The notes under the pieces were generated by a model that saw only the letters and a program-made list of their open reading frames with translations, was not told where the DNA came from and did not search any database. Shown piece after piece: positions 25,701 to 52,190 of a stretch of DNA of 64,000 nt. A program made the translations under genes and the position numbers. Within the stretch, counting starts at the first letter, position 1. Every line of letters begins with the position of its first letter. Source of the stretch: Owenia fusiformis (taxonomy: Eukaryota > Annelida > Polychaeta > Sabellida > Oweniidae); contig CAIIXF020000003.1 in NCBI GenBank assembly GCA_903813345.2, forward strand, positions 14,212,931-14,276,930, read 5' to 3'.

Positions 25701-28700
25701 TCCAATTAATGTCTTTCTTTTAACCTTATCAGGTTTTCCATCCCATATAAAGTTATACATTGCTTTCTCTAAATCTAAAAGTACATTTTCTGGCATGGTA
25801 ATAACAGAGGCTAAGTAAAGTAATTGTGGCAATGCATTTGTTTTTACGATGGTTATCTTTCCATGAATAGTCAGATCTCTTTTCTGCCACTTCTTTAATT
25901 GATCTTTAAACTTTTTTACCCTGAAATCCCAGTTTTTTTGATTACTTAGTTTCTGATCATTACATATGTATACACCTAGGACTTTAACTGGATCATTTTT
26001 CCAGCTAAGACCAGCAAATTTCATATCTCTGTTTTGTGTGTTATTTCCTATATACATTGCTTCAGTTTTTGTTTTATTTATTACTAACCCAGATACTTTT
26101 CCAAAATCATCTAAAATTTTAAGAACGTTTTCAACAGACTGATTATCTTTTAAAAATAAAGTGGTATCATCTGCTAACTGTGCAATTTTGATTTCTTTCT
26201 TACCAGGTGTTTCGATACCACAAACATTTTTTTCTTGACGTATCTTACATGATAGGATTTCTGCACATAGAATGTACAAATACGAACTGATTGGATCTCC
26301 CTGACGAATACCAGGGTTGGGATATAGCCGAGGATCACACCTCATACCTGTAAATTAGTAAAACTGTATATTTCTATTGTGTGTTTGGAAAGATGACAGA
26401 GACAATATTGCAATGTGTTTGCTTTACAATGTGTTTATTTTTAAAAATTGATATATTCGTTTCTTTTGCAGTCTGTTTATATGTGTTTATTTTATGTGAA
26501 TATTTTCTTTTTATTTGCATACCAATACAACGATTCAACCGAGGATCGTAGCTGGTACCAGTACATTTATACGACAATATTTTTTATTGTGTTTTGACAG
26601 ATGATGGAAAAATACAAATGGAGATTCAGAGATGGATTATGATAATCCGTTTAATTCAAGTGGGGATTTTCTTTTCTTTTGTAGTGTGTACCAATACTAG
26701 GGCAAGGATTCAGCCGTGGATCGTACCAATGTGTTTGTAAAGATGGTTTTTACTTCCCAGATACATCATCAGTCCAACAATACTTTAACGGAACTGAGAT
26801 TGAAGCACAATACGACAAGAAAATGCAGGTGAGAATGGTTCGATGGACGTTTTGGCTTGTATTATTTTCCAGTTTGGTATGTTTTGCAGGTGTATCGTGT
26901 TTTATTATCCTATTAGGTTGAGTATGCGTTAAAAGGGCATCTCGTTTGCTGAATGCTACAAGGCTTTTTTCCTGGTATTGTCTCCGCGTTTTCTGAGTAC
27001 AATACGTACATGTAGGTAAACATCGGGAACCTTTTATTTAACCTTCATCTAAGGCCTATCAATTAGAAAAAATCAAAATATTTTTCTCTCTCGAAATCTT
27101 AACAAAATTAACGTTAATTGGCTTCCAATAAAAATTCTTCAAATCAATTTTATCTGTTGAAAGCCCATGGTTATTTTTAAAACAAATGTTAGGATCCGTC
27201 GCAAGGGCTTATACTCATTTCTTATGACACAGGCCTTATGAGATCCTCTCTTCCTGTTCGGATTAACACTTCTCTTAGTCGACGGTTTGTAATTACTGAT
27301 TGCGTATACGAGATAATCCGCCTAGAGTTAAACCAGCTAGAAAAAAAAAATTAAATAATGTTGAAACACATTTAGTTGATCTGCTTAGTCCGTCTTATAC
27401 CACGCGTTGAACTCCTTCTTGCACTACCTCCATATTAAGCTCTATTATAGTTAACTAACGACTGATGTACTTTCTGTATCATTTATCTTGACATATGAAG
27501 GCTTGTGATTTCTATCCTTCAGTTAGGACAATATAGAATAAGACATAAACACGAAAAATGTCACCACCTGCCATTTGTTACAGACGCCGAACACCAACCG
27601 CCAAACACCAACTGCCAAACACCAACTGCCAAACACCGTCCGCAAAAAGTGGTGCCTCAAAAACGTACAGTTCGCCATTATTTAGATCTTAATGTGTCCA
27701 ACAAGTAGCCACCGTGACTTTTCGTAGGATATTGAATATGAAATAAAAGCTAAAGAATGTTTTGAATTATCTGACCGTAAATCTGATTGGATAGTCGGGG
27801 TTTTGATAAACTTACTTTGGTTGGGTAAGGCTAGATCAAGGGATTATATCTTATTGAAAGAGTGAAAATGAAGACTCTTCAAAAAGGGAGGTAAGAAAGG
27901 GCATCACGTGTTTCAATTTCATTAACCATTTTCCCTTAAAGTAATATGGTCCGTCCCACTTTGCCCTGATGACATTTCCCTACAACTTTCTCATTCAACT
28001 CTTCATGTACCACGTTTCGAATCGCTTGGTATACTGCATCGTGTACCAGGGGTCTGTACGGTACCCCTTTTATTAGCGTGTACGCATCTTTTTTGCATTG
28101 CTCCAACACTTATACTTATACTTGTAGAATCAACACCTTGAGAGCAGTTCGTACAAAATTGTTACATTTGTGTCATTAGGAATGGCGTTAAATACATTAG
28201 GGTATACAATGATGCGTCGTTTACAATATTACAATATTATATATTGTATACACTTTCTAGTAGTGTTATAGTTATATTTCTAGTTCGTAGAAAAATCTTT
28301 TTCTGCAATCCACTTCACCGTAATATCGTTATCACTTATGATTCACACTTGTATTGGAACTTGACAAAAAGTTCGACAACTGAAATAAATTGAATTCTAT
28401 TTTCATAGGATAATCCCATGGATAACTACTACGACTCGTCCTTCTCCTGTCTTCCTTGCGCCCCTGGCTGTGATAAATGTGTTGATGACAAGCCGTGTAT
28501 AATCAGCCTTCACTGGGACCAAAGGAGAGCCATTCTAGGCCTCAACTCACTAGTTATGGTGTGGATATTTGTACTCATGTGGTTTACTATCAACTATAGA
28601 GACGTTAAGGTGGGTAAAGGTTCAAATGAAGTGTTTTCGTGCCCCTGGCCATTATTTGTTCCGAAGATTTGCTGTTTGACCACATGTTCATGTTTGTTTA

Positions 28701-31700
28701 TATTTGGCGATTTCAACAAATTCATTTCATTCTCCGACCTTGGAACAAATAAATATTAAAACAACAAATACATAGAGTGGCCAAAATGTTCAAAAAAGCC
28801 TTAGTTAAGCCTTATATCCTGTTAAAGAACCTCTATTCTTACTCATTAGCTCAGAAGAACTCAAGTTGATTGAGTCTAAATAAGTACAATGTAGATTCTT
28901 GTTGGATAGTATTGCTAGAATCCATTTTCAATAGTAAGAATAGGGGTTCTTTAACAGGACATCGGACCTGCTTTCTAGAATTTTTTGATGGCTCAAATAC
29001 TTTTTGCACGCTGCCCAGCAGGGACCTTTTGGTTGTCAAACCTGAAGAGGGTGAGAATTTGATTCGCGTAATATGAAATGAAACGGGTCGTACTTGTAGT
29101 GAAAATGATCGTGTTGGATATCCAAGCTCAGGATGAATCTACGAAGTATTTTTGATTGAAATTCAAGCTACTCAAGCTGGAAAGCGAGTATGGAAAATGA
29201 TGCCGTTATTGGTAACTGTTGACAGGTTCATGGCATTGACAAATGTATACCATTAGCAAACACACCTGATCACCTGTTTACGTGAATTGTAAAGGACTGT
29301 CAAATCATCACTATTAGCACGATGTAATGGATGGTAGAATTATACAATACCAATACGTAAAACACCATGGCGGTCATGTATAAGATGCGAAATTCAATGG
29401 AACAAATGAAATGAAGAAGACATCAAAGTTCATCATTATATACTCTATGTACAAACTGACCAACGATGTCCGAAGGTTGATACCTCAGTCAATGGTTAAA
29501 AAGAAATTACGTGGAATTAATAAGCCGATGTTAACTTTCAAGAATTGATACGGAGGCCCATTTCCCATTGTTCTGTCAGGTTCTTTCATAAAGTTGATTA
29601 AATATTGTCGATACGAACTGTATATGGGTTTATTGACATCAGTATATCCCATTCTTAAAATCACTTCTTTTACATGTTAACGACATTCTCTTTGAAATGG
29701 TAATGAACTGCCTGATTTTCTGGCATTTTTGTCAAATTAGAATTATTGATTACATGTGCGCTGACTTGTCTCCCCGGCAATTTGAATCTTTTCTAAGCCA
29801 TGTTCTTAATTTTGATCACGTCACTACTATGAAACCTGTATTACTAGTTGTATCAATTTATCAGGATATTCATCTTGCTAATTTAGTATTTGATAGAATC
29901 GTAAATAATTGCTGGTATGAACTGGGATAAGGCGGTAGGAATTCGATTCTACGTTACGCATTGTTTTATTTCTGTATACGGATGAAACAATATGCCTTTT
30001 TGTTTTTCTTGGATTCCTGAAATTGACGCATCACGATGTTTCTCTCATCTAATAGAAAATGTGTTATCAAAATGCTGAACATGTTGTACAATGTTGTACA
30101 AATGTAATACAATAAAACATATATCTATATTATATGTATTATGTAGTATGCAAAAATCACCACTGTTTTTAACGATACATGCATCGCACGTTTTTTTCAT
30201 AATGAAAGGGGAAATACCTGGCTTTCTATTTATCAACACCTACCTTCCTAATTTGTTTGCATAAATCGGCCTCTCTTGTCACTGTCTCTCGATTCGAGAT
30301 TGTTTAACGGATTAATGATCATCTTTTTCGACCCTAACACCGGCGGCGGCACGATCGATCGTGTGTATCAACAAATAAAGTGGAGGGCCATTGATCCTGG
30401 AAATGTCTATTAGAGACCCTGATATATCGTTAGGTAACACTAACACAATATGACAGTGTTATTGGTGTACGTGATTTATATATTGTCGAGTGTGAATACA
30501 CACCGTGAACCTGTAACCCATTCGACACATTTCCCTTGATAGAAATTGTTCTCCATTGATTTTTCTGTGGTACAACAAGACATACGATAGCACGCTTCGC
30601 CATTCTTCCGTTGGTTGGAGTGACACTTAAATGGGTATAGATTGTGAGGTTCCTAGATTGAATTCAGCTTTTTGTTTATGTTTACTTTGGCTTTTAAGAT
30701 TTATATGAGTCGTTATTGTTTCGTTTTTAATGTTTCCCTTTATGCTTCTTGTTCCGGGAATCGTTCCATATATGCTTTCTCACTGCACAGATTTTTCAAT
30801 ATTTGCAAGAGGCTTCAGAGACAGGAGCTAAGAAGGCGTCAATACGATTTAATTAAAGAACTATGATATCCACTAAGAGAATATCCCCCCTTGTGATATA
30901 TCACTTGTAAATATCAATGGCGTTTTGTATCATCGGGTAATACTTAAAATCATATCAATTTCAATCACCGACATACGGCACGTCTAGATTCTGGACGTTT
31001 TTGATACTGACATTTTGTTTCGTTATTGTGTATTGTAGGTCCTAAAAGCCGCAAGCCCAATGTTGTTGCGGATCATCCTATTAGGAGCCTTGTTGTTATA
31101 TTGCCCGGTAAGTGTGCCTGTTAATACAGCAGTGTCCTTTTATATGTTAATAGAAATCAAGGTTAAAGGAAATAGCGGGGATTGGAGTTCATATTATTAT
31201 TTTGAACCTCATTAAGTTTTAAAGGGAACTGTCCAAGAAAAAGCAAAGATTAGAGTTCACATCGTTTCAAATTTGAACCTTTTTGAGTTTTAAAGGAAAC
31301 TGTGCAGGAAATAGCAAGGATTAGAGTTCATATCATTTTAGATTTGAACCTTATTGAGTTTTAAAGGGAACTGTCGAGGAGAAATCAGGCATGAGATTTT
31401 TTATTTCAGTTTGGCATAAGTTCAGTATGCAATTTGTCAACTATGATTTATGGTCGTCTGGGGAGTGAAAAGCGGATATATTTTATCTTCGTTTTTAATA
31501 CACTATTCTAATTTGTACTTTATTTGACATCGTGTTCTGATTTATGCTATCCTCTCGGTACATATTAAATCAGAGTCCGAGCAAAGCTTTGGCGAAACCT
31601 GACAAGAAAATATTTTGATGCAATCAAGTGGACTTGTACATCATTAAACCAATTCGAGATTTACACGGACTGGGCTTTGTAGTAATTAACACGTTCTGGC

Positions 31701-34700
31701 CTTGGAGAAATAAGTATCCCACTATTTCTGCCATTTTTTCACGGAAACAATGTAAGAAGAAACCAGTCCCATACCCTCACCCTCAGCACCTAGAAACCAC
31801 CCAGAAACCACAAGACCATGGAACGATAGTAGATATTTGCGATTAACTTCCATAGCAGAGAGAAAAAAGAAAAACAATGCATAATAAACAGTATTGGAAT
31901 AGAACTGGTTTACGAAGATTTATTAGATTGTACACTTTATGAATCTAAAGTACTATTGTTAGAAAATATTCTAATCTTACAGACACATTCAAAAACACAG
32001 ACACCTGTAAATACCAACGTGTCAACTTTTAAATAGGATATTACTATTTTTCTCATATTTATTGCGATATTTGTAGAATACGAGCAACACTTTATAATAG
32101 TACACTAAACCCCTAGTTATAGTGCATTATATTTTTCCCTTAGACAAAACACAACGTTGACATGTTTGATTCCTTGACCTTACCTTGCTCTTAATATTTG
32201 TAATATTGGCAAAACTGCCCTAGTACCCGTCACTTCCGCTGAATATAAAAAAGTAGTTTTAAAAAATGAATGTAGTCCGAACACAATTTTGATCATGACG
32301 AGTCAGTAAGCTAGTATGTAGGTACAGTGTTCATTTTTTGCAATGATAACATGCCATTTCTTCTGAAAATGCGTTTATTTGGGTTGCCTGAAGGAAAATT
32401 TCGAGTCAAGTGGCGTATTGATTTTGGCTTCATTTTTGTGAATTTCAATTTCTGTCGGTAGTGTTTATTTCAAAAAGTAGATGTTTGACCCCTATTGAGT
32501 TTAGTGTCAAAATGTAGCTTAGACATTGCTTTTGAACCTCAGATAGGCAAGTTGGGCCACATAAATCCATAACTCGAGATAAGAAACCAGGCGTTTGCCC
32601 ATTTGCCCATTGACTAGTATGGTGACGTGAATAATTTCGACGTGGCATGTTTTGCTTGAGAGAATTACGTTCTTTATCAAATAAAGAGCAAACAGGAATG
32701 AATACGTTTGATGATATCACATAATGATACATAATATATTTGTAAGTACTAATTGAACTACATGATTATACCATAACTTTCAACTTCCCAAAGATTATAG
32801 AATACGTATGTGTGTAGTTATGTGAAAACAACCGTATGCGTTGTACGTGAGTCATGACGTCATTATCAGTGCTTCATTTCCAGTTCAAATTTTCCTCCCT
32901 TAACCAAAAAAAAGCTAGAAATGAATAATTGGAGAATGATAATTTGATGTTCTTTTGGGATGTTGGGGATTTGGTTTCTTTGGCTGGTTTCTTTGTTCAT
33001 CTGTTCACTCTTTCAGCTTTGGTCCTTTTGCTATTGTGGTACCAGTTAAAAATAAGATTTGGTGATCGAGCAACATAAAGTCATACACACTAAATTATTT
33101 TAGCATCTTGTACTGTGACTTTAAGTCGTATACTGGGACTCTTCAATTTATTTAGGGAAATCATATATGTTCATACGTCTTACAAGTGTTTATATATTAT
33201 ATCATATATTTGCAGATGATTGTGAATTATTTTGAGCCTACTATACTCACCTGCTCATTAAGATTGTGGCTACGGGAGTTAGGGTTTTCTATATCATATG
33301 GCGCACTATTACTCAAAACGTGGCGGTAAGTACAAAGGAGCTCAAGGGTTTTCTTTATCATATGGCGCACTATTACTCAAAACGTGGCGGTAAGTACAAA
33401 GGAGCTCAAGGGTTTTCTATATCATATGGCGCACTATTACTCAAAACGTGGCGGTAAGTACAAAGGAGCTCAAGGGTTTTCTATATCATATGGCGCACTA
33501 TTACTCAAAACGTGGCGGTGAGTACAAAGGAGCTCAAGGGTTTTCTATATCATATGGCGCACTATTACTCAAAACGTGGCGGTAAGTACAAAGGAGCTCA
33601 TACTCTATATGAAGTGAAAACAACCACAACCACAACAAGGTAGCCACGGCCAGGTGTTCGTTATAATAGAGAGATTTCGCAACTCACTTCTAGCATTTTT
33701 ATTTTTCCCGTATAACGTATAACTTATGAAGCGTTTTATTGCGCAGCTCTCTATGTTCATAAGTGTGATATTGTTACGTACAGACAACGATTTATAGGAA
33801 TGTCACATATATAGTGCTGCGCAATAAATGATGACGTAATCAAACGCTTCATATAAAAGTATGATAATGTCAAAGTTTCTTCCAAGGTTAAATATAAGAG
33901 GGTTGCGCGTAAGCTATTACCGAACCAAGGTCTGGAAAATCTCAAGTTGTCTTTTCAAATTATTCTGGTTAGTTCAAATGAATGCTCCTTATGACTTACA
34001 CAGGAATTTTCTTTTTCAGCATATCCGTTGTATTCAGAGTAAGATCTGCCGCTAGGATAAAGATATCAGATATGGACCTAATAAAGCGTTTGGCATTAAT
34101 AGTATTGATATTTGTCATATACCTTTCAATACGAATGGCAGTTGGCAGACCATATATAACAAAAGGTAAACGAATTAAATCAGTAGCTACACATTTCAAA
34201 AAAATCCAAGAGCATCTTGTCGAGACTTATTGATTATTTTCTTGTTTTACGATGTAAAACATCTTCGTGAAACTTCGCCTGCTTTACTTTTGCGAATTCG
34301 CGAATATAACTTTCGAGTGTCGGCCATCGGAATAACCTACTCGTTCCATTAATCTCTAGTTTTAAATTGCTTGTTGTTTGTTTTATATCACTGCATGCAT
34401 GTATTGTTATGAATGTTGTAAATAAATATTTTATGTTGCAAAATTTGTTGCATTGATTATTTGCACTTTGAAATCCTTGTAAAGGCCCTCTGTCCGGTCT
34501 TCTTTTTGCTAGATTACATTCAGTATCATCTTGATACCCCTAGAAGGGTCTCATTACACTAGGTTAATCCGGTAGCCGACAGCCGAAAGTTGCATTCGCG
34601 AATACAAGCTTACAGTAAACTTTTAAATGTTTGGAACTTCTTTGAACCTCAAAAATAAGCAGTTAAAGTACCATATTGAAACAGAATATGTAAAAATAGA

Positions 34701-37700
34701 AACATTTATACATGTCCTAACTTTTGTATATTTTAGTTTGTTTTGTAGTTTAGCTATCATATCTGTCGTCTCTTATATTTTGATGCTTCTCTGCCATGTT
34801 ATTTTCGAAAAAAATTAACATGGTTGAAACTCCCTAAATTACAAAAGGGCACAGCTTTGCTGCACATTATACATAACTATCTGAAATATACAAAAGTTGG
34901 GACTTGTACACATGTTTCCATTTTTTATATACTGTTGCAATATAGTCATTTGATTGCTTATTTTTTAAATTCAAAGTAGTTCCAAACATTTAAAATTTTA
35001 CTGTAGTTATACAGTTGGACAGAACATTCGTTTTGGTCATGATAAAAATACGTCATCTCTGCTATAAAAATGTAGTTATTCACATCGATTGTATAAGCAA
35101 TAAATGATTATACAGTATTATGCCACAAACATTTGCGAAATTACAAAAAAACGTGTGTTGGCAAAAGTTAATTGAGATAAAAACGAATATTACTGAAACA
35201 CTTTGACATTAAAACCTCTTTTCAATATAGAACTTACCCAAATGATTCTATTTCATGCCATTTTGATGTAAGTTGTTGTTCCAATCTGAAGGCTACAATG
35301 AAATTGTTTTTATCACTATTGACATTTGACAGCAAGTATTACTTAAAATACACTTTGGGAATTTTCATTGCATTATTTCTATTTGGAGACTATAAAATGA
35401 TTACATTAAGGATTATCAGTGTTGTTTATAATGGGAGATTATTACATATATTTTGAAAATTAAATTTTATAATTATTAACCAGAAATAAACTTACATATT
35501 CGTCCATGTAGAGTCAAATACCTTATCCTATTAAAAGATGGCAGGCTTTATTTAACAAATTATAAACAAATTAATTATTACATTTTCCTAATATACCACT
35601 ATTAATATAAATATACGAGGGTTGATCATAAAGTTCTCATAATATCTCTCTAATTTCTTTGTTTTTCAATATATTCTCATGAAATTTTCACAGATTGTGC
35701 AGCATAGAATGTCTTATTAATTCAGCAAAAAGTATTAAGTTCAACAGAAATATTTAATAAGAAATGGTTGCCATAGTTACGGGAAATCAAGGCACCCGGG
35801 GCAAATAAAAATAATTGAGAGAATGAGCTTAATTAACCATGTATGCATACATAATAAACTCTCTCATGAATTACCAAACACGTTAAAATGTTAACTTGGA
35901 TATGTTGTTAAGTGCTTTAACAATAACAATGATATAAATCGATCGTGTAAATTGTGTGATGTCACAGGGGATGATTTCATGCTTCATTAGATGTGATACC
36001 ACAGTCGAGACTCAACCAAATGGGCAAAACCAATTTTCCTCGGGATATTTGACAAAACAGTCATGGGGTCTAACCGTCACTTCTAATGAAGCATAACAAT
36101 CATCCATTATGAGATCACACAATCCACATGACCATTATAATAGTTCACAATGATCAAGAGCACATATTATTTGACAATTTAATGTGTTTGATAGCTTATT
36201 TGACAACTTATTATGTATTTAAACATGGTTAATGGGGGCTATTCTAGCTAGTTTTTTTATTTGCCCCGGGTGCCTTGATTTCAAGTTACTATGGCAACCA
36301 TTTCTTATTTGATGTTTCTGTTATTTTAAATCTTTTTTGCTAGAATAATAAAACATTCCATGCTGCACATTCTGTGAAAATTTCATAGGAAAATATTGAA
36401 AAATAAAGAAATTAGAGAGATATTATGAGAACTTTATGATCAACCCTCGTAGATAATAAATTTGTTTGCTTTGTAACTTAGTGATCTTTACTCCTCTTTT
36501 TATTAGAGTAGATAGTCATTAATTTTAGAACGGGGACACAATATACGTCATAGTTCTATTTAGGTCAATATTTATTTGTTTAATTATACATAATGTATAT
36601 AAGTATCTAATATATAAATATACATTCCCCTCCAAAGGTTTGGAAACCGAAGATTCATTTTGGTAAAATGTTAAAGCCTGTCTATGTTTGAAGAAAAAAT
36701 TGCACAATATCCAAAGGGACTTTTGGTGTGCACGCTATCCGAAGGGACTTTTGGTGTGCACGCTATCCAAAGGGACTTTTGGTGTGCACGCTATCCAAAG
36801 GGACTTTTGGTGTGCATGCTATCCAAAGGGACATTTGGTGTGCACGCTATCCAAAGTGACTTTTGGTGTGCACGCTATCCAAAGGGACTTTTAGTGTGCA
36901 CGCTATCCAAAGGGACTTTTTGTGTGCACGCTATCCAAGGGGACTTTTGGTGTGCACACTATCCAAAGGGACTTTTGGTGTGCACACTATCCAAAGGGAC
37001 TTTTGGTGTGCACACTATCCAAAGGGACTTTTGGTGTGTACGCTATCCAAAGGGACTTTTGATGTGCCAATCGTATGGAAGGGAATGTAGGTATAAGAAG
37101 GTATTCGAAAAATCCACAAAATATCCCAAAATTTAAAAATGAATAAAAATAACACCTTTGGGGTGATACATCCACGATATAAATTAATTATAGAGATTTC
37201 AATATTGTTATATAACTTGCTTCTTTATTTCAGGCGTTCATACTAGTGGTTTATATGCATTCCAATGTTCCTGGGACGTTTGGGACTACTGTGGGGCCAT
37301 AGGTAATTATAACAGCCGTCACGATTATTTTTCAATTAGCTAGAGATTTTGATGAATGAATAAGAAATTACACACACATGAGCAGAGTATTTTCTATAGG
37401 ATATAGGAACACAGGAAATAATTAATACATTTTGTTAAAAATAGATAGATGTGTGATCGGATTAACATTTTTAGCTATGCATAATTAACGTTGCTTAACG
37501 TTTAATTAACGTTCGCTATCAGTTAGAATGTAACCATCTGGCGGGAAGTTCATCGAGGCTTCCTGCACGCAAGTTGATTACCTTAATTATCTCAAAAAGC
37601 ATGAATGCCAAATGTATTTAGAAACACCTTACGAACTCCGTTGCAGGCTTGAGTAATTTGAAATTACGTTTAAAAATGGTCCCATTAGATAACACAAATT

Positions 37701-40700
37701 GTATTGAGACTTCGATTAGGTGATGCTAAATGCGTTTAAGTACTTAGCACGAACAAGTGGCTATGTCTTAAAGTGCAGCTTTAATAATAAATGGTATCTG
37801 TTGAGTTGAAAGATTGGTACAATTACTAGATATTGACCTTAGTTTCGTATGTCACAATAACTTTTCCATTTTTACCTAATATGTTTCCATTTCCATGACC
37901 CCGTCTCCTTTCTACGATAGTCTTTCCAATTATGGAATTGAAAACTGGAGACGAGGAGCTAATCTAGCCTTGTTGAGCGCAGTGGATTTTTTACATTTAC
38001 ATATCTTTCTTTTTCAGGTGAACTCTTATTTCTAATATGGGGTATTCGGCTATGCATAGTGGTTCGAAAAGCACCCTCAGAGTTTAATGAAAGTAGATTT
38101 ATCAGTTGGGCCATATACAACGAGACCCTACTTTCAGTCTTTCTTAATGTAACAATGTAAGTGTCATTTTAATCATTTAGTGCCTCTCGAGTCATGTTCA
38201 ATGTAAAAAGACGAGTCTCGGTTTGGAGAACGAAGTGCATTAGTCTCCTTAACGCCTACTTTGGACAGTGTTTTGATATTTTTACATGTTGTCGATTTAA
38301 ATGTCCTCTTTTGAATATCCATAATTTAATTTGGGTGATATTTTTATATTTTTCTTGAAAAAATGATTAGCGCAGTAGACTGATAAACTTCGTTCTCCAA
38401 ACCGAGACTTGTCTTTTATTGAATCGGTCTACTGCACGTTACGCCTCCTTCGGTCAATTTTGATATTTTTACGTAAATGTCCTCTTTTGAATATTCATAA
38501 TTTAATTTGGGTGTTATTTCTATATTTTTCATAAAAAATTAATAGCCCAGTAGACTGTTCTCCAAACCAAGACGTCTTTTTGTAAAAACAGGGAAATAAC
38601 CAAGGAATAAAGTACGCATTTAGTTTACACTCTAAAATGTATGGAAATATCGGAAAATAAGGAAGTCTAGTTCAGGCTGTGGAAATAAATTTTGAAAATT
38701 TGTATGACCTTGGGATGACTTGTAATATATCACTATGGGAAGTTTTGGTTGAATTATTAGAAATCAAATGCCAATGATTTTAAAAGCACAATTCTAAAAA
38801 TAAATGTATTGTCTTCGAGCGATCCAAGATATCCTGTAAATACTATTAAAAATGATTTAGACATACTTATTATCCGTTTGCTACTAACTCAGCGTTTGAA
38901 CAATAGGTCACGCCGATCTTTTTTCCCATTCAAAAATGAAAATAACTCGATTAAAGAAATCGGAAGTGATATACACTGTAGAGTTAAAGTGCTGGAAGTA
39001 ATCTTATAAATGCCGAAATTTTTCTTTACAGTCATAATTTTATTTTGTGAATAAAAAATTGGGATGTTGATTTCATGATGATCTAAGATGCAGAAAATTC
39101 CAAATTCACTAGAATTTAAAGGGCGACATTACATTTCCAATAGTCTTGACAGATAAACTTTAAAAAATGGAAAGACTTTCTTGAAACAAAGTCAGAACTG
39201 TTTGGACCACGTGTAAATAGGGACCACGTGGAATGAGCGTAGCAAAGATTATTATGAAATAATACTCACTTTTCACAAGAAGAACAAAACAATTTCATTT
39301 TGCCATTAAGAACAGTTAATAATGCAAAGTTGAAATTTCTTTCTGAACTAATCGTAACAAAATATATCTACATACAGTATACAGTTCACAATAACCCGTA
39401 CTTAAATACAGACAAAGTAAACGCATTGTATTACAGCGTTTGATTCACGCTGATTGATTTTATTGAACGTTAATCTATTCCAGGTTTTTTCTCCAAGAGC
39501 CTGCAAATCCAGATCTGCTGTATTTAGTTGTATTCATCCACACTCAGTTAACAACAACAGTCACATTAGCTTTTCTATTTGGCAGTAAGGTATGTGATTA
39601 AATCATTGTAACCATGTTTTTAAAATTCAACATTAAGTAGAAAAGAAGTGCGCTGGCAAGATTTGAAAAAGCCAGCCATGTAGCTGGCATTCTGAATTGT
39701 CTCGTATAGAAATGCAAGAAAATCAGCTACTTCTAGATTTGGAACAATCGCTTATCTATTCATCAAAATAGTAGAAAATAGTATACTCGCAAGATTTGAA
39801 ATAGCCAGTCATGTAGCTGGCATTCTGAATTGTATAGAAATGCAACACTGTGTACACTGGCTAAATCTGAAAAAAGATGAAATGGAAAAGTTTAAAGGAG
39901 TGGTATCGATATGGTGAACTTTTTGAACACGCATTTTTCTTAAATCAGTCATCAAAACGTTCTGAAAATTTTACACATCTTCAATTTAATGGTCATCTTT
40001 TGGATGGTAGCATTATAATTTGAAGTATATATATATACTTTTCTATATATGGTTTTAGAAAACACATCAGACACTTCTTTTGTTCTTGGTATCATATGTT
40101 CGGAATGAAATAAAACATCTATCCGAACCTCATTGGAGCAAAACGACATAAACACAACGTGTTTAGGTCTCTCGATATTGTAATTGTAAAAAGGAAAATT
40201 TGGTTCCACCATTTGATTTTAAAAAAGTATCTTGTTAATGAAATAAAAGGTTTATCTTAAATTTTTATCTATTTTGGGGGGTTTGTTTTAGGTTTTTGCA
40301 CACATTTTGTTAAATCAACCAAAAGTATAACTATAATATTGAGAGGTTTAAGAAAATGTTGTATGCTATTTTGTTCCAACAAGGTTCGGAAAAACATTTT
40401 ATTTCATTCTCAAGAATTGGTAGAAAGGAACTGAAATAGGTTTTTGAACTGAAATAGTTCATGTCAAAATCTATAAATGTTGAAATTTGTAGATTGCAAT
40501 TGTTTAATATTGATGGATTTAAGGATCAAGGTCAGGACCGGGGTTGGTTTAATATTTAAAATATTTTATTTCAGGCCTATGTAGTGTATAAATATTCCGA
40601 TAAGGAGAGTTGCCCAACAGCCATGAGTCGAGGGTCAAAATACATGGCCGCGCCAAAATCCCAGGGAGGGGGCACAATGCTTAGTAATCTAGACTCTAGT

Positions 40701-42324
40701 GGTAATACTACAACCTTCCTACTTGAAGAATGCCAGCAAAATGGTGGTATAGAAAAAGATGTACAGGTTTGTAAAGTATATTACGAGTGGTGATCAAAAT
40801 GTTTTATACCAATCGCAAATTTCTTTTTGAGACTTTTAATATGATTAAACTATTTTGAGCACGTATTTCTCTGAATTTCAAAACTAAAAATTTGACAGAA
40901 TGATTTAGAATTTTTTAGATTAACCCTAGTAAATTGTAATTGCAGTAAATCAGAACTATTCGAAAAATACATCCCTTTAATTCCTCAGACCGTCTTTGCC
41001 CTTTTTGCGAAACTAAATGTAGATATAGAGAAACACTTGCTTATATACAACGCTGGCAGCGTTATTCTTATCTCGCTTACTCCAATATCCCCTTTCTTTT
41101 TGTTTCCCTCTATCCCCTATTTGCTCTTCCTTCATTGGAGTAAAACAAAGTGTTATATACTACTCAAGCGGAAAATCTCTTTAATCTTGAGTCTTAAGGT
41201 AAAACTGTATATCATAATGTTACACAGTTTATTGCAACATGGGCACATGGTGACCTAACAAATCTGTCTCCAGGTCATAGGCCCTGGTACGTGTATGATT
41301 AAGTAGAAAATATTTTTCTCAGATCCGTTTTTAATGTTACCTCAACAATTTGCAAGAAGTGACATATTGTTTTGGTCTCCAAATTTTTGTGGACGGTTTT
41401 TGGCGTTCGGGGTTGTTGTTCGACGTTCAGGACTCGGGTGTCGGCGTTCGACATCTGTAATTAATGGCAGCTTGTGACATTTTGCATGTCAATGCTTTGA
41501 TTGTACATGTTCCAGGCCCTATGTATGTGATGTTGTTGATTTTCGAGAGAAATTCAAAACACAGTTTAAATATTTTAAGTATACTGTTATTGGTCCCAGA
41601 AAAATTCAAAATATGTAAATTTAGTCATAATTTAACAATTTTTCAATATATAAATTAATGTGTTCACATCATTTCCGCATACAAACGTGATATTACTTTT
41701 AAGGAAAAATTTAGAATGCGTTGAAATTAAGAAAGTCTCAATTTTGATGTCAACAAGTGGTGTTATCGGTATTTTTCAAGAAGAACTCAAAATATGAATT
41801 TAAGAGATTTAGTATTACAATCAAAATGTTCCCAATATATTAATGTTCTCAAGTGACGCAATTGTTTTTCAAGAGGAATTCTAAAGACGTATAAAAGTTA
41901 AAAACCAAACGTATTTTCAGCGTCATAAAGTGATGTAAATGTTTTTCAAGAAGAATGTTAAAGGCGCTAAGGTATTCTCAGTATATGAATTATTTTTACT
42001 TGGGGTGTACCTTTTTAAGAAGAATTTAGAATAAACTTTCCTTAAGTAAAATTATTCTTAGTATATAAATGTTTAATATTGATCTAATTGATTTTTCAGG
42101 AAGAATTTAAAAGACTGTATATGCAGATAGAGACGTTAAAGTTAAAAAATATGAAACTGGGTAATCCTCATCTAACCAATAAACTATCGGCGATGGCCGA
42201 CCTCGCAATGAAAGAGGAACCCCCAGACGACTCAACACCATCAACGCCAAACCTCAACACAAACATTAATGGAAAACGTGTAGTTATAAACTTAGACGAT
42301 TTTAAAGATGCCACTGCCTTATAG
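10685..42324 (+). CDS. GPR158-like: GPR158/GPR179-like orphan class C GPCR, last 11 coding exons (5' end not found)
   Basis: Eleven exons join in phase to give 504 residues ending at a TAG stop: 10685-10799, 26685-26828, 28409-28609, 31039-31107, 33216-33325, 34020-34165, 37234-37302, 38018-38156, 39484-39589, 40575-40766 and 42100-42324. All introns are GT-AG. In order the protein has an EGF-like module, a cysteine-rich juxtamembrane segment (CLPCAPGCDKC), seven membrane helices with the class C cysteine pair (TM3 start and second extracellular loop), and a cytoplasmic tail of about 140 residues with a likely coiled coil. Vertebrate GPR158/GPR179 are plasma-membrane receptors with a Cache ectodomain and very long tails that recruit RGS7-Gbeta5; GPR158 has been reported as a metabotropic glycine receptor. 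Ligand and coupling here are unknown. The tail is much shorter than in vertebrates. Signal peptide and Cache exons must lie upstream, in or before this window. Confidence 0.88.
10800..12961. other. Intron 1, first part; nothing recognised
   Basis: The start of a 15.9-kb intron. No exon, RNA gene or complete element is recognised. A GC-rich fragment near 11886-11920 (CCGTAGCGAAGGGG) looks like a piece of a dispersed repeat. Confidence 0.4.
12962..13226. repeat. Inverted-repeat element enclosing CRE and CCAAT sites
   Basis: GTTATAACATACCTATG (12967-12983) pairs with CATAGGTATGTTATAA (13204-13219). Between them lie a GC-rich stretch (about 13039-13050), an inverted CCAAT (ATTGG, 13061-13065), a perfect CRE TGACGTCA (13075-13082) and a direct CCAAT (13086-13090). 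The layout resembles a compact promoter. It may be part of a mobile element or an intronic promoter; no transcript is evident. Confidence 0.5.
13225..13266. repeat. Perfect 18-bp hairpin, 6-base loop
   Basis: TTATGTCACTATCGTGGC at 13225-13242 is exactly complementary to 13249-13266, with loop ACATAT. It directly follows the inverted-repeat element. Function unknown: a cruciform-forming site or the centre of a lost foldback. Confidence 0.85.
13267..16569. other. Intron 1, nothing recognised
   Basis: No exon is recognised. The phrase ATGTGATAGATCCAGAA and close variants occur near 14570, 14596 and 14636 and again near 19610, marking a diverged dispersed repeat. A G-run lies at about 14516-14525. 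Both-strand open frames at 13650-14180 carry no domain. Confidence 0.4.
16570..16690 (-). repeat. Possible tRNA-derived SINE fragment
   Basis: On the - strand a GGTTGCGAGTTCGAGAC segment (16593-16609) resembles a polymerase III B box. It is preceded by a GC-rich, tRNA-like stretch unlike its AT-rich surroundings. No complete cloverleaf could be drawn, so a working tRNA gene is not claimed. Confidence 0.3.
16691..19695. other. Intron 1, nothing recognised
   Basis: Two copies of a self-complementary AATTGCTACA(A/T)TGTAGC motif lie near 17523 and 17618 as the only structured elements seen. No exon, RNA gene or transposon protein is recognised. Confidence 0.4.
19698..20507. mobile_element. TIR element with duplicated internal body
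   Basis: Termini are CTATCACACCAAACTAGTTCT at 19703 and AGAACTAGTTTGGTGTGATAG ending at 20501; the inverted match extends outward through CCC/GGG toward TA dinucleotides. A third, internal copy of the right terminus (TTGTTTGGTGTGATAG) ends at about 20114. The two halves (about 19703-20114 and 20115-20501) align as diverged direct copies: both contain CGTTCATAA(A/G)CAGTCTT, GTAAATAGAC and AGAACG(C/T)AGTG. The body is rich in GTTCGT and ACGTC words. No transposase is seen. Confidence 0.7.
20832..20940 (+). repeat. Dispersed repeat (TTGGCGTTCGGC family), copy 1
   Basis: Shares CTCCAACATTTTGTGACGG, TTGGCGTTCGGCGTCTGCAA, CAAATAGCAG and GTGACATTTTGC with copies at 27552-27656 (- strand) and 41370-41505. 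Neither a coding role nor terminal repeats are apparent. Confidence 0.65.
20981..21077. repeat. 97-bp direct repeat, left copy
   Basis: Begins GTATGTTGCACTAGGCTTGG and is repeated without visible change at 22647-22743. The pair brackets the 602-bp tandem duplication and about 370 further bases. Confidence 0.9.
21076..22279. repeat. 602-bp tandem duplication, two apparently identical copies
   Basis: Copies are 21076-21677 and 21678-22279. All open frames recur at an offset of exactly 602 with the same translations, and I see no difference between copies. This implies a very recent duplication or an assembly artefact. The unit contains no recognised gene. Confidence 0.92.
22280..22646. other. 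Spacer between tandem duplication and right direct repeat
   Basis: No gene recognised. It contains CATTGGAGCGCCATCTAGCG near 22372. Confidence 0.4.
22647..22743. repeat. 97-bp direct repeat, right copy
   Basis: Matches 20981-21077 over the full length; the two copies are 1,666 bp apart. Confidence 0.9.
22744..23372. other. Intron 1, nothing recognised
   Basis: A + strand frame at about 23263-23396 (starting MSIGDKVNTRLTLSPENAFD) has protein-like composition, but it runs into the mariner terminus, lacks splice-site support and has no recognised domain. Confidence 0.35.
23375..24459 (+). mobile_element. Mariner-family transposon relic, about 1.1 kb
   Basis: TA dinucleotides at 23373 and 24460 flank termini C(A/G)AGGGGTG(G/A)TCAATAAG in inverted orientation. 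The inverted repeats reach about 190 bp inward, to GGTACCCCGGGA on the left and TCCCGGGGTACC on the right. Inside, 23745-24038 encodes the catalytic end of a mariner transposase. The N-terminal helix-turn-helix region and the first catalytic Asp are absent, so the copy is internally deleted and non-autonomous. Confidence 0.9.
23745..24038 (+). pseudogene. Mariner transposase fragment
   Basis: The frame carries HMDNAPAHRS, which holds the second Asp of the mariner D,D34D triad. PYCPDLLTCDLF follows, where the usual family pattern is PYSPDLAPCDF with the third Asp. Only about 97 codons remain of a protein normally near 340-350 residues. DNA-binding and early catalytic parts are missing, so it cannot be active. 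It lies inside matching terminal inverted repeats. Confidence 0.9.
24561..24591 (+). pseudogene. Left part of a split EGF-exon copy of the GPR158-like gene
   Basis: TTTTGCAG followed by CTTGTTCCAATACCAGGGTT closely resembles the acceptor and first codons of the working exon at 26685 (TTTTGTAG, TGTGTACCAATACTAGGG). The sequence resumes at 26307 on the far side of the LINE. The last 12 bases (AATACCAGGGTT, 24580-24591) are repeated there as the LINE target-site duplication. Confidence 0.65.
24592..26306 (-). mobile_element. 5'-truncated LINE with 12-bp target duplication
   Basis: The 12-mer AATACCAGGGTT flanks the element at 24580-24591 and 26307-26318. The element reads on the - strand and is cut off at its 5' end within the reverse transcriptase. 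It retains an open C-terminal frame of about 550 codons and a 3' UTR of about 86 bases rich in A on the sense strand (about 24592-24625). No long poly-A is present. The open frame suggests a fairly young insertion. It lies antisense in intron 1 of the GPR158-like gene. Confidence 0.8.
24678..26345 (-). pseudogene. LINE ORF2 C-terminal part (reverse transcriptase, L1/Tx1-like)
   Basis: The 555-codon frame begins within the reverse transcriptase: GIRQGDPIS at residues 12-20, then the catalytic LADDTTLFL (57-65, in place of the usual F/YADD), the thumb region, NFIWDGKPDKVKR (198-210), GGYKMIDL (220-227) and a C-terminal zinc-knuckle-like C461-x2-C464...H474-x4-C479. The endonuclease and the palm motifs before GIRQGDP are absent. 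The first 11 or so codons come from flanking host DNA, not the LINE, so the Met start is accidental. The sequence style suggests the L1/Tx1 group; a phylogeny would decide. Confidence 0.85.
26307..26352 (+). pseudogene. Right part of the split EGF-exon copy
   Basis: AATACCAGGGTTGGGATATA, then GCCGAGGATCACACC, aligns with the working exon's AATACTAGGGCAAGGATTCA, GCCGTGGATCGTACC. Read in the exon's frame it gives VPIPGLGYSRGS against VPILGQGFSRGS. The downstream cysteines of the EGF module are lost, so this is a decayed duplicate exon. Confidence 0.6.
26500..26580 (+). pseudogene. Second decayed EGF-exon copy
   Basis: TTTTCTTTTTATTTGCATACCAATAC, AACGATTCAACCGAGGATCG and ACCAGTACATTTATACGAC follow the acceptor and first 60 or so bases of the working exon. 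There is a 6-7 base deletion, a small insertion and an in-frame TAG. A further acceptor-like TTTCTTTTGCAGTCTGTTTA at 26459-26478 hints at another remnant. The similarity is judged by eye. Confidence 0.5.
26685..26828 (+). CDS. GPR158-like: GPR158-like exon: rest of EGF-like module
   Basis: The acceptor TTTTCTTTTGTAG and donor CAG|GTGAGA bound 48 codons in phase 0. The protein starts CVPILGQGFSRGSYQCVCKD and continues GFYFPD, an EGF-like Cys-x-Cys pattern. NGT is a possible N-glycosylation site. It completes the module begun in the exon at 10685, across the 15.9-kb intron. Confidence 0.88.
26829..27551. other. Intron 2, first part; nothing recognised
   Basis: AT-rich intron without recognised repeat, exon or RNA gene. 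Confidence 0.4.
27552..27656 (-). repeat. Dispersed repeat (TTGGCGTTCGGC family), copy 2
   Basis: On the - strand it reads TTTTTGCGGACGGT, then four tandem TTGG(T/C)GTT(T/C)GG words, then CGTCTGTAACAAATGGCAG and GTGACATTTTTC. It matches copies at 20832 and 41370, with the short core word expanded into a small minisatellite. Confidence 0.65.
27657..28408. other. Intron 2, second part; nothing recognised
   Basis: No repeat or exon recognised before the acceptor TTCTATTTTCATAG at 28395-28408. Confidence 0.4.
28409..28609 (+). CDS. GPR158-like: GPR158-like exon: cysteine-rich linker and TM1
   Basis: 67 codons in phase 0 between acceptor TTTTCATAG and donor AAG|GTGGGT. The segment FSCLPCAPGCDKCVDD is a short cysteine-rich linker. 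It leads through RRAILGLN into the first membrane helix (about LNSLVMVWIFVLMWFTI) and the first intracellular loop NYRDVK. Arg/Lys-rich ends support cytoplasmic loop placement. This is the strongest single exon for the GPR158/GPR179 assignment. Confidence 0.92.
28817..28959. repeat. Short foldback repeat in intron 3
   Basis: TCCTGTTAAAGAACCTCTATTCTTACT (28817-28843) pairs with 28933-28959 except for one or two bases. Overlapping open frames on both strands are by-products of the symmetry. Confidence 0.75.
28960..31038. other. Intron 3, nothing recognised
   Basis: No exon, RNA gene or element recognised. AT-rich runs lie near 30050-30150. Confidence 0.4.
31039..31107 (+). CDS. GPR158-like: GPR158-like exon: TM2
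   Basis: 23 codons in phase 0, acceptor TGTATTGTAG, donor CCCG|GTAAGT. The peptide starts VLKAASPMLLRIILLGALLL and ends YCP, a single hydrophobic helix. The VLKAASP opening is typical of TM2 in this family. Both flanking exons match in phase. Confidence 0.9.
31165..31386. repeat. Three tandem copies of a unit of about 73 bp (intron 4)
   Basis: Units contain GATTAGAGTTCA, TTGAACCT and GAGTTTTAAAGG(G/A)AACTGT and are diverged from one another. Confidence 0.75.
31387..33215. other. Intron 4, nothing recognised
   Basis: No exon or element recognised before the acceptor ATATATTTGCAG. Confidence 0.4.
33216..33325 (+). CDS. GPR158-like: GPR158-like exon: TM3, ends at first of five repeated donors
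   Basis: It encodes MIVNYFEPTILTCSLRLWLR, then ELGFSISYGALLLKTW and two bases of an Arg codon completed by the next exon. The Cys before the helix is the expected class C disulfide partner of the second extracellular loop. The donor is GCG|GTAAGT. The last 45 bases plus the donor belong to a 64-bp tandem repeat, so four further identical donors follow. Using any later donor adds a TAA right after CGG, so only the first gives an open product. Confidence 0.9.
33281..33600 (+). repeat. Five tandem 64-bp copies of an exon 3' end with its splice donor
   Basis: Copies start at 33281, 33345, 33409, 33473 and 33537. Each has 45 bases of TM3 coding sequence (to GGCG) plus 19 bases of intron starting GTAAGT (GTGAGT in copy 4). 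Otherwise I see one substitution (copy 2, CTTTATC for CTATATC). Such uniformity means a recent expansion. Confidence 0.95.
33601..34019. other. Intron 5 remainder
   Basis: GAAGCGTTT(T)AT near 33730 and its complement at 33845 (AAACGCTTC), with GCGCAGC and GCTGCGC between, suggest a weak foldback at about 33715-33860. No exon recognised. Confidence 0.4.
34020..34165 (+). CDS. GPR158-like: GPR158-like exon: second intracellular loop and TM4
   Basis: Acceptor TTCTTTTTCAG, donor AAAAG|GTAAAC. Its first base completes the Arg codon; it then encodes ISVVFRVRSAARIKISDMDL and the fourth helix LIVLIFVIYLSIRMAVG, ending one base into a Gly codon. The basic loop (R-V-R-S-A-A-R-I-K) is the usual G-protein-facing second loop. 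Confidence 0.9.
34561..34610. repeat. Solo arm of the 9.6-kb foldback family
   Basis: AGGTTAATCCGGTAGCCGAC and TTGCATTCGCGAATACAAGCT match the right arm at 9751-9800. The partner arm is missing. Confidence 0.75.
34611..35004. mobile_element. 394-bp foldback element
   Basis: TACAGTAAA and TTAAATGTTTGGAAC at the left pair with GTTCCAAACATTTAA and TTTACTGTA at the right. Pairing continues inward through TATACAAAAGTTGGGAC. No coding potential. It abuts the solo arm at 34561-34610, so the two may form one element. Confidence 0.75.
35005..35613. other. Intron 6, nothing recognised
   Basis: Very AT-rich; no repeat or exon recognised. Confidence 0.4.
35616..36449. mobile_element. 834-bp, almost fully palindromic MITE (Tc1/mariner-like)
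   Basis: Flanked by TA at 35614 and 36450, it opens CGAGGGTTGATCATAAAGTT and closes with the exact complement. Pairing continues most of the way in: GGTTGCCATAGT against ACTATGGCAACC, GCACCCGGGGCAAATAAA against TTTGCCCCGGGTGC, TTAACCATGTATGCATACATAATAA against TTATTATGTATTTAAACATGGTTAA, and ATTGTGTGATGTCACA against TGAGATCACACAAT near the centre. It encodes nothing. The TIR resembles mariner ends (compare 23375). Confidence 0.9.
36623..37087. mobile_element. TA-flanked element with a minisatellite as its body
   Basis: TA at 36621 and 37088 flank ends CATTCCCCTCCAAAGG and TATGGAAGGGAATG, which are imperfect inverted copies. The left end resembles that of the 933-bp element at 62488 (CACTCCCCTCCATAAG), including a shared GTC(T/G)ATGTTTGAA about 65 or more bases in. 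Between them sits the 28-bp repeat array. Confidence 0.6.
36708..37068. repeat. 28-bp minisatellite, 12 full copies plus a partial one
   Basis: Consensus TATCCAAAGGGACTTTTGGT followed by GTGCACGC. 28 is not a multiple of three and the unit has no stop in the three forward frames, so long open frames with a 28-residue period appear; these are not genes. Confidence 0.95.
37234..37302 (+). CDS. GPR158-like: GPR158-like exon: second extracellular loop
   Basis: 69 bases between acceptor TTTATTTCAG and donor ATAG|GTAATT. It encodes HTSGLYAFQCSWDVWDYCGA with split Gly codons at each end. The Cys of FQCSW is placed to pair with the Cys at the TM3 start, and the C-S-W-D-V-W-D-Y pattern is characteristic of this loop in the GPR158 family. 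Confidence 0.9.
   Translation, partial: AFILVVYMHSNVPGTFGTTVGP
37303..38017. other. Intron 7, nothing recognised
   Basis: No repeat or exon recognised. Confidence 0.4.
38018..38156 (+). CDS. GPR158-like: GPR158-like exon: TM5, third loop, TM6
   Basis: Acceptor TTTTTCAG, donor ACAAT|GTAAGT. It encodes ELLFLIWGIRLCIVVRKAP, then SEFNESRFISWAIYNETLL and SVFLNVT, ending two bases into a Met codon. TM5 runs into a short loop (RKAPSEFNESRF) and TM6 begins at about ISWAIYNE. Two NxS/T sequons occur by chance at membrane positions. Confidence 0.9.
38205..38582. repeat. Foldback repeat with an extra half copy (intron 8)
   Basis: AAAAAGACGAGTCTCGGTTTGGAGAAC at 38205 pairs with GTTCTCCAAACCGAGACTTGTC ending near 38414. 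A second, partial unit repeats ATGTCCTCTTTTGAATAT and ends GTTCTCCAAACCAAGACGTC at about 38577. Confidence 0.75.
38583..39483. other. Intron 8 remainder
   Basis: Nothing recognised. The + strand frame at 38809-39009 has no domain. Confidence 0.4.
39484..39589 (+). CDS. GPR158-like: GPR158-like exon: third extracellular loop and TM7
   Basis: Acceptor AATCTATTCCAG, donor AAG|GTATGT. It encodes FFLQEPANPDLLYLVVFIHT, then QLTTTVTLAFLFGSK, ending in phase 0. The hydrophobic helix with an H-T-Q-L-T-T-T-V-T-L core fits TM7 of the family. Confidence 0.9.
39590..40574. repeat. Intron 9 with two diverged copies of a unit of about 65 bp
   Basis: CAAGATTTGAAA(A/T)AGCCAG(C/T)CATGTAGCTGGCATTCTGAATTG occurs at about 39657 and 39789. 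A self-complementary AGTATATATATATACT lies at 40024-40039. Otherwise empty. Confidence 0.6.
40575..40766 (+). CDS. GPR158-like: GPR158-like exon: proximal cytoplasmic tail
   Basis: 64 codons, phase 0 at both ends, acceptor TATTTCAG, donor CAG|GTTTGT. It starts AYVVYKYSDKESCPTAMSRG and continues with a Gly/Ser-rich, polar stretch (SQGGGTMLSNLDSSG) to EKDVQ. This is expected for the intracellular tail just after TM7. Confidence 0.9.
40767..42099. repeat. Intron 10, with dispersed repeat copy 3
   Basis: 41370-41505 matches the family at 20832 and 27552: GGTCTCCAAATTTTTGTGGACGG, repeated GGCGTTCG words, CATCTGTAATTAATGGCAG and GTGACATTTTGCATGTCAAT. From 41700 to 42080 several AAGAA(G/T)AATTTAGAA-like segments recur. 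No exon recognised. Confidence 0.55.
42100..42324 (+). CDS. GPR158-like: GPR158-like terminal exon: coiled coil and C-terminus
   Basis: Acceptor TGATTTTTCAG. 74 codons then TAG. EEFKRLYMQIETLKLKNMKL has heptad spacing for a coiled coil, like the helix that follows TM7 in GPR158/GPR179. A Pro/Thr/Asp-rich linker follows (EEPPDDSTPSTPN), and the end is VVINLDDFKDATAL. The whole tail is only about 140 residues, far shorter than in vertebrate members. Confidence 0.9.
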   Translation, partial: EEFKRLYMQIETLKLKNMKLGNPHLTNKLSAMADLAMKEEPPDDSTPSTPNLNTNINGKRVVINLDDFKDATAL

Positions 42325-50717: not shown

Positions 50718-52190
50718 TTATTAGACTCCAGATGAAATCTGGAGTCTATTGTTTTCGTCAGTTTTCTTATTCTTCTTCTTCTTCTTATTATTATTCTAAC
50801 CCAGTTTTCTCAATGACCATTAGGCTTTCAGTAAAGTCAGTCATTTGGTCAATTTAGGTTCAGAATCTAGTTCCTCGGAAATTGGGTCAAATTTTTATCT
50901 AGGTCAAAGGTCAAGAACTAGGTCAAATCCAGTACTTTGCCACTTTTTTCGATTTTCTCGGTCGTCCTTCAATATTTTCGATCCGGGTTTTTTTCATTGT
51001 GTTCCTTATAAAAAAGTAGGAAACCTAGGGTCGATTTAGTTTTTTAATATCTCAAACCGATTTCGAGATATCAGTGTCCGCAAACAAGGTCCAAAAAAAA
51101 GTTCTCCGAATCAAATGTCCAGGATATTAGTCATATAGGAAATTTTCTCAGGATTCCGAATCTGAAAACCAAATTTAGATCGGACTACCGGTTCAGAAGT
51201 TATGGCGTTTTGAAAGCTCAAAAATCGCTAAATTTGGTGCCCATGTTAAGTCAATGGGAAAAAGGATTTTTTTGAAGTAAAAAATATGAAATATAGACTG
51301 AGTTTAGCTAAATATAATGAAAGCTTTTAAAAGAATGGGACCTCAAAAGCCATCTAGCTTCAAAATTTGGACACCAAAATGCCTAGGTCAAAATCTAGGT
51401 CAAATTCAAAGTTTTTCCTTATTTTTGCGATTCTGACACTACAGATTAATTATATTCTTCGAAATTTTGTATACATGTAGCCAAGAGTACGCTAATAGTG
51501 TTAGCCTTTTGCCGTCAGAAAGTATTTTGACCCACTTTTGAGATATGGTGTCCGAAAAGTAGGTCAAAATAAAAAGTTCTCCAAATTTAACGTTTGAGTT
51601 ATGAATTAAGAATAAAATTTTCTCAGAAATCCGAATCTGCAAACTAAATTTCAATCCGACTTCTGGTTCCGAAGTTATGGCGTGTCCGAAAAGTGGGTCA
51701 AAATAAAAATTCGCTAAATTTAATGTTTGAGTTATGAGTTAGAGGTAGAATTTTGTCAGGATTCCGAATCTGCAAATCAAATTTCGATCCGACTTCCGGT
51801 TCGGAAGTTATGGCGTTTTGAAATTTCAAGAAAAATCGATCTGATGGTATCCTGATAGAAAGTCAAGAATAGAGAAGAAAATATTGAAAATACATCCATC
51901 CTTCCTTTCTGATCCTATCCTATCCTTCCTATCTACCCTTGCTTCGTATCCTCTCCTTCCTATTCTATCCCTTCTTCCTATTCTATTCTATCCTTCTTTC
52001 CTATTCTATCCTATCGTTCCTTCCTATTCTATCCTATCCTTCCTTTTTTATCCATCCATCCATCCATCCATCCTTCTTTTTCTTAAGGACTTAGCTTATT
52101 TTGGATGACTTGGTTTATTCTGGATGACTCGGCTAAAAAAAGTCTAGATCTGGAGTCTGAAATTGAACTCGTTCAATTTCCAAAATCTAG
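50718..52190 (+). mobile_element. Helentron/HINE-like element, copy 2
   Basis: It starts exactly after the CTAG of copy 1 with TTATTAGACTCCAGATGAAA and ends with ATTGAAC-TC-GTTCAAT, then CTAG at 52187-52190. The internal repeat unit is shared with copies 1 and 3, but the microsatellite is different: (C)CTATCCTTCC words and (ATCC)n at about 51895-52075. Head-to-tail abutment is typical of Helentron-associated repeats (HINE/DINE). Confidence 0.7.

Follow-up and report, generated by a model that had tools for sequence, protein, structure and literature searches.

A mirage in the amphioxus Adh3 gene was reportedly described by Canestro in 2002, and a minisatellite that supplies multiple splice donor sites to the IFI6 (or 6-16) gene is said to have been reported by Turri in 1995. 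The IFI6 minisatellite is built of a short 12-nt unit, and its donors are used in vivo. According to the accessible part of the source, amphioxus mirages are minisatellite-like duplications of exon-intron boundaries, as in the globin genes BflGb6 and BflGb9, and they vary in length, with globin haplotypes of six and three units (PMC3087553). In the same accessible text, globin RT-PCR suggests normal splicing, although cryptic use of some copies is considered possible; the Adh3 mirage is described as somatically unstable, either boundary of an exon can be affected, and mirages were proposed as a route to new introns. Human segmental duplications contain boundary minisatellites with units of ~30 bp and about four copies on average, which can alter splicing and create introns, as stated in the available portion of PMC2812944. 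Furthermore, the available excerpts of two other reports describe a tandem duplication across an intron-exon boundary in the potato RdRp gene (PMC4974935) and some novel intron positions in Drosophila that arose with tandem duplication (PMC2891723). The accessible text of PMC8724738 held nothing usable on duplicated donors, and a literature search for such arrays in annelids, in which the term ‘mirage’ was not used and few subscription papers were included, brought up no report.

The array analyzed here lies in a stretch of 64,000 nucleotides of the annelid Owenia fusiformis, referred to below as the window. Three above-threshold matches to the annelid haemoglobin linker family, which is not known outside annelids, lie on C6 of the same genome and point to an annelid; a hemerythrin search returned no match. 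The original prediction had placed the array in the TM3 exon of a GPR158-like gene, an assignment that is borne out by the ten-exon product. Among solved structures, this product matches GPR158 best (E 3.2e-65), followed by GPR179 (1.1e-56) and then mGlu7 (9.4e-14), i.e., the product is far closer to GPR158/GPR179 than to the glutamate and GABA-B receptors. The ten exons extend from 26685 to 42324, are bounded by ordinary splice sites and form one open frame of 466 aa, which contains a class C seven-helix domain (Pfam 7tm_3, 153.5 bits). The GPR158_179_EC profile returned 26.3 bits versus a cut-off of 28.1, with query residues 1-23 matching the end of the profile in a query made of the exons from 26685 on. 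The host gene is predicted, from its sequence, to encode a GPR158-like receptor with GPR158 as its nearest solved relative. Its exons, all on the plus strand and in open frame, are as follows.

26685..26828, +, Cys-rich extracellular exon (GPR158 alignment)
28409..28609, +, Cys-rich/TM1 exon (GPR158 alignment)
31039..31107, +, TM2 exon (GPR158 alignment)
33216..33325, +, TM3 exon, 110 nt, phase 0 to phase 2, predicted productive form (TM3-GPR158 alignment)
34020..34165, +, TM4 exon, acceptor TTTTTCAG
37234..37302, +, extracellular-loop exon (GPR158 alignment)
38018..38156, +, TM5-TM6 exon (GPR158 alignment)
39484..39589, +, TM7 exon (GPR158 alignment)
40575..40766, +, C-terminal exon
42100..42324, +, last coding exon with stop, the first part of which aligns to GPR158

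The end of the TM3 exon was found to lie in a tandem array at 33281-33600 (TRF: period 64, 5.0 copies, 98% matches, score 626), and the five near-identical copies of exon end and donor that had been claimed are thus present. Only two substitutions distinguish the five units, both private, one each in units 2 and 4. In each 64-bp unit, 45 nt from the end of the TM3 exon are followed by the 19 nt with which the intron begins, so the repeat takes in 45 nt of the 110-nt exon, which is roughly the 3' half that had been described. The TM3 donor window recurs downstream at 24/24, a match that none of 500 dinucleotide shuffles attained (top 16/24), while a DNA search of the assembly (498 Mb, 525 contigs), in which very common words were skipped, located no second place with this array. 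RNA folding of 33281-33600 showed nothing special (z 0.60) and, by eye, the unit contains only CTCAAG and no acceptor with a pyrimidine tract. The units and the intron are arranged as follows.

33281..33344, +, unit 1: 45 nt of exon end, donor 33326 and 19 nt of intron; predicted productive copy
33345..33408, +, unit 2, decoy donor at 33390
33409..33472, +, unit 3, decoy donor at 33454
33473..33536, +, unit 4, decoy donor at 33518 (GTGAGT)
33537..33600, +, unit 5, decoy donor at 33582
33326..34019, +, intron from donor 1, 694 nt (438 nt if from donor 5)

The donor GTs thus begin at 33326, 33390, 33454, 33518 and 33582, the fourth being GTGAGT, and no further GT between 33216 and 34019 scores high enough by the simple donor measure that these five pass. 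The five donors had been called equal, which is so for strength, with a U1 pairing energy of -10.7 at four of them and -10.8 at the GTGAGT donor, but not for position, since donor 1 lies 110 nt from the acceptor and donors 2-5 lie 174-366 nt from it, these being also the respective exon lengths. It had further been predicted that only the first donor keeps the frame, and the joined-exon translation agrees: with donor 1 the ten exons remain open over 466 aa, whereas donors 2-5 lead to an immediate stop at CGG TAA. This stop arises because a phase-2 exon that runs on into GTAA, GTGA or GTAG always gives NNG and then a stop codon.

In its architecture, the array resembles the amphioxus mirages of the accessible source text, i.e., boundary-spanning minisatellite-like arrays at donors or acceptors, with one authentic copy joined to the exon and units of tens to about 160 bp in many copies with AG/GT signals. 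The 33281-33600 array (64 x 5) spans an exon-intron boundary, and both 5' and 3' exon boundaries are struck in this one genome (3 donors and 8 acceptors in the survey below). It differs in its annelid host and in that arrays were counted here, at 2.5-3% of sampled edges, from DNA alone, whereas the accessible text on amphioxus covers splicing, haplotype variation and somatic instability, and the available part of the human study (PMC2812944) concerns recent paralogs with RNA support rather than conserved gene families. The potato and Drosophila cases (PMC4974935 and PMC2891723, in their available parts) are alike in that tandem duplication copied splice signals, but there the duplication gave a new intron, while the TM3 array has five copies and shows no sign of an added intron. 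The IFI6 and TM3 repeats are both minisatellites with several donors, although the former has a 12-nt unit and the latter a 64-nt exon-intron unit. The TM3 array is likely a young minisatellite across an exon-intron boundary, of the amphioxus mirage type, of which this annelid genome, rich in repeats, contains many, and the repeat is probably tolerated rather than a designed switch. The earlier suggestion that copy number may vary between individuals has support in so far as repeats of this kind are reported to vary in length in amphioxus (PMC3087553). The array probably grew by tandem duplication followed by unequal exchange or slippage, and the presence of only two substitutions in five units indicates that it is recent.

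Exon edges were surveyed in four unrelated gene families of the same genome. Tandem arrays copying a splice site occurred at 8 of the 286 edges of sample 1 (143 kinesin and myosin exons, 142,710 bp) and at 3 of the 146 edges of sample 2 (73 dynein and ABC exons; L075, L084 and L095), giving 11/432 when pooled, a figure that includes L095 although its second acceptor derives from exon-internal sequence, and 13/432 with the cases added by alignment (2.5-3%). The latter are a donor (L065) and an acceptor (L022) of sample 1, both confirmed by reading the sequence. Of the 11 TRF cases, 3 concern donors and 8 acceptors, in arrays of 2 to 17 copies; those of sample 1 are listed here.

L023, donor array, at least 5 copies (the array runs to the end of the sequence taken around L023)
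L024, donor array, 17 copies
L057, donor array, 4 copies
L009, acceptor array, 3 copies
L016, acceptor array, 4-5 copies
L021, acceptor array, 3-4 copies
L047, acceptor array, 2 copies
L064, acceptor array, 4-5 copies

The rows used (kinesin 91/144, myosin 52/92, dynein 29/29, ABC 44/83) were picked for clustering, some with many stops being skipped, and repeats played no part in the choice except that 18 dropped kinesin rows are copies within L007. In sample 1, edge positions came from a simple score based on consensus frequencies and are approximate, 100 donors and 123 acceptors of the 143 exons lying above the splice-score threshold; arrays of sample 2 were judged by reading. The alignment scans covered 258/286 edges of sample 1 and 116/146 of sample 2. 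Three candidates were set aside: the array of L025 ends short of the acceptor; L092 has a weak array over its donor (2.5 copies, 24 bp, 75%; best downstream match 14/24), the inclusion of which would raise 11 to 12; and a second match in L057 (21/28 at -294) was doubtful on reading.

The edge arrays differ in age and size, those of L009 and L064 being older and diverged. The 17 copies in L024 (G000:C6:40703800-40708400, minus strand) repeat the end of a kinesin exon together with its donor, and an intron from the last decoy would be only 33 nt long. Outside the sample, the kinesin exon L007 (G000:C2:23265900-23270100, minus strand) has its acceptor and 5' part repeated 18 times as a 159-bp unit; only the last copy is joined to the rest of the exon, all 18 acceptors keep AG, and the frame ends in a stop in all three decoy units that were read. 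At the start of an ABC transporter exon, L095 carries a 67-bp duplication (414-547 of G000:C9:24353600-24356800), through which the present acceptor appears to have arisen from sequence inside the exon.

An unlikely alternative is that exon edges are preferred targets of tandem duplication, through a process tied to splice sites or to transcription. When each array is counted as one unit, the other arrays predict 3.5 edges and 11 are seen (Poisson P 0.001), and this excess over the neutral expectation might reflect seeding of arrays close to splice sites. A control with points placed 100-400 nt inside the introns, however, gives an expectation of 5.05 for the same 11 edges, and 8 were seen versus 4.5 expected in sample 1 when edge arrays were included in the density. 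Raw coverage of edges is no higher than that of introns, at 13/430 match edges versus 3.5-6.2% of points 100-400 nt away, a comparison in which a point may fall in any array copy and an edge only in the one authentic copy. Nor did the alignment test (window of 28 nt for acceptors and 24 nt for others) give an excess at edges in either sample: donors 4/129, acceptors 7/129 and intron points 41/774 in sample 1, and donors 0/57 and acceptors 2/59 in sample 2. These edge tests are confounded in that the sequences taken end ~450 nt to either side of an exon and exons that were not listed pass for intron. Exon centres of sample 1 lay in repeats in 1/142 cases, as expected of coding sequence. A genome-wide pattern of three AGGTAAGT words matched 562 windows versus 284 for the backward word, but among the AGGTAAGT rows listed there were 6 arrays versus 13 for the backward word, which speaks against enrichment, and genome-wide enrichment of donor-word triplets was accordingly rejected. 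Edges are thus not clearly depleted of arrays and perhaps somewhat enriched.

Relatives of the host gene in the same genome bear on the same alternative. L002 (C7) and L003 (C8) share with the host gene a phase-2 intron at the same arginine, with the following exon located in both, and L004 (C3) has a possible donor at the same codon as the TM3 donor. At this TM3 donor, L002 was found to carry, at 585-685, four decaying copies of 22 nt of exon end and donor with spacings of 34, 22 and 23, the best of which matches at 21/24 (0/500 shuffles), whereas the same shuffle-tested match showed no such copies at the TM3 donors of L003 and L004. Since their units are unlike and exons matched between the window gene and the C7 gene are 38-58% identical, we take the two arrays to be separate events. 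Arrays at the same TM3 donor in two of the four GPR158-like genes examined favor seeding at edges, and they exceed what we can explain.

With regard to the reading as a tolerated minisatellite, edges are struck about as often as intron points, so removal by selection is not visible. A rule of exon definition would account for such tolerance. The copy joined to the exon is always the one nearest to the partner site across the exon, being the first donor or the last acceptor, so a shortest-exon rule would pick the right copy and a shortest-intron rule the wrong one. At the TM3 exon, the acceptor before 33216 would be paired with the nearest good donor, 110 nt away, and splicing would mainly use donor 1. 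As the authentic copy lies nearest to its partner site, such arrays would do little harm in most cases and would drift as intron repeats do, and the lack of clear depletion at edges suggests that the exon rule holds here. Duplicated strong 5' sites often favor the downstream one, which here would give nonsense. In human genes, the intron-proximal (downstream) one of two competing 5' sites can win, for example through SRSF1, as described in the available part of PMC5585400. Some use of decoys would thus be possible, perhaps at a low level and removed as nonsense message.

The original prediction went further and proposed a splicing-based dimmer, in which a fixed share of splicing goes to donors 2-5, the resulting nonsense messages are removed and receptor level is adjusted through copy number. 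This now appears very unlikely. The donors are equal in strength, all four decoy donors are intact, and each leads to an immediate stop upstream of later junctions, as a dimmer would have it; the stop, however, results from phase 2 followed by GTAA or GTGA, and arrays of this kind also strike unrelated genes (the 11/432 edges above) and acceptors. When the nearest decoy was read in 13 arrays (L022, L065 and L095 being left out), 11 were predicted to run into a stop or shift the frame, and the other 2 to stay open with an in-frame insertion, namely of 19 aa in L024, whose first decoys would bring in 19-aa repeats in frame, and of 14 aa in L021. This mixture of outcomes fits chance and not a device. 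Moreover, in the accessible text of PMC3087553 amphioxus mirages are suggested not to disturb splicing, and conservation of the TM3 array could not be shown.

The fate of the decoys themselves was followed in ten arrays. Core GT/AG bases were changed at 0 of 112 positions in 56 decoys, where ~5 changes were expected from the ungapped rate. In gapped alignments, variable columns made up 19/126 of the motif columns versus 87/622 of the others (P 0.78), and selective conservation of decoy motifs was rejected as its signal vanished after gapping, the unchanged core bases excepted. Exonic columns vary less than intronic ones (P 0.004), a difference that is probably inflated by misalignment of flanks and poly-T in L007, L021 and L024. 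The decoy motifs are neither eroded nor clearly protected, and the 0/112 core changes leave room for weak constraint on decoys.

It is similarly improbable that the reference carries a rare, mildly harmful young allele, which lowers correct splicing in carriers and is to be lost. The two substitutions among five units would suit such an allele, as would the ability of downstream donors to win the competition, both as a general expectation and in the accessible part of PMC5585400, but edge arrays are not clearly rarer than intron arrays and old, diverged arrays persist in L009, L064 and the C7 gene. An assembly artefact with a true copy number of one is hardly credible, even if one amphioxus mirage appears misassembled in the genome draft (PMC3087553 supplement, in its accessible part), since two of the five units have private substitutions, 320 bp is short for long reads, and arrays of the same kind with diverged copies occur at other edges.

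As a boundary-spanning minisatellite, the TM3 array is a mirage of a known kind; the high frequency of mirages in the genes sampled from this genome may be new. More tentatively, and with considerable doubt, mirages might occur genome-wide here at ~3% of splice sites, somewhat above chance, with a spliceosome that ignores up to 17 intact decoys by position alone. If true, the genome would constitute a large natural set of splice-site competition experiments, in which arrays of identical sites separate splice-site strength from position. If the sampled rate holds genome-wide, which is an extrapolation, ordinary RNA-seq could test exon definition among equal sites, and the effect of copy number and spacing on errors, as well as turnover into new introns or exon extensions, could be read. 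For the GPR158-like gene alone, the finding is modest.

Of note, several other repeats and exon groups were observed. Elsewhere in the genome, tandem units that resemble a tiny whole exon by eye, i.e., an acceptor, 6 or 11 nt and AG|GTAAGT, are repeated several times at G000:C1:51116462-51116989 and C1:45656224-45656491. About ten myosin exons at G000:C9:37986009-37994334 match the same part of the profile at irregular spacing, and are probably alternative exons of one muscle myosin gene. Within the window, the intron that follows the TM4 exon contains 13 copies of a 28-bp unit (36701-37067), and a minus-strand open frame of 558 aa at 24678-26354, upstream of or inside the receptor gene, is non-LTR reverse transcriptase-like by eye. 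Three 133-bp double repeats and a 476-bp unit present 2.7 times, with shared sequence by eye, occupy 48995-53851. The 12-bp unit CTACTTACTCAG occurs in 16-17 copies in each of two arrays, at 50440-50647 and 53980-54175, and reads on the minus strand as CTGAGTAAGTAG, a donor-like word.
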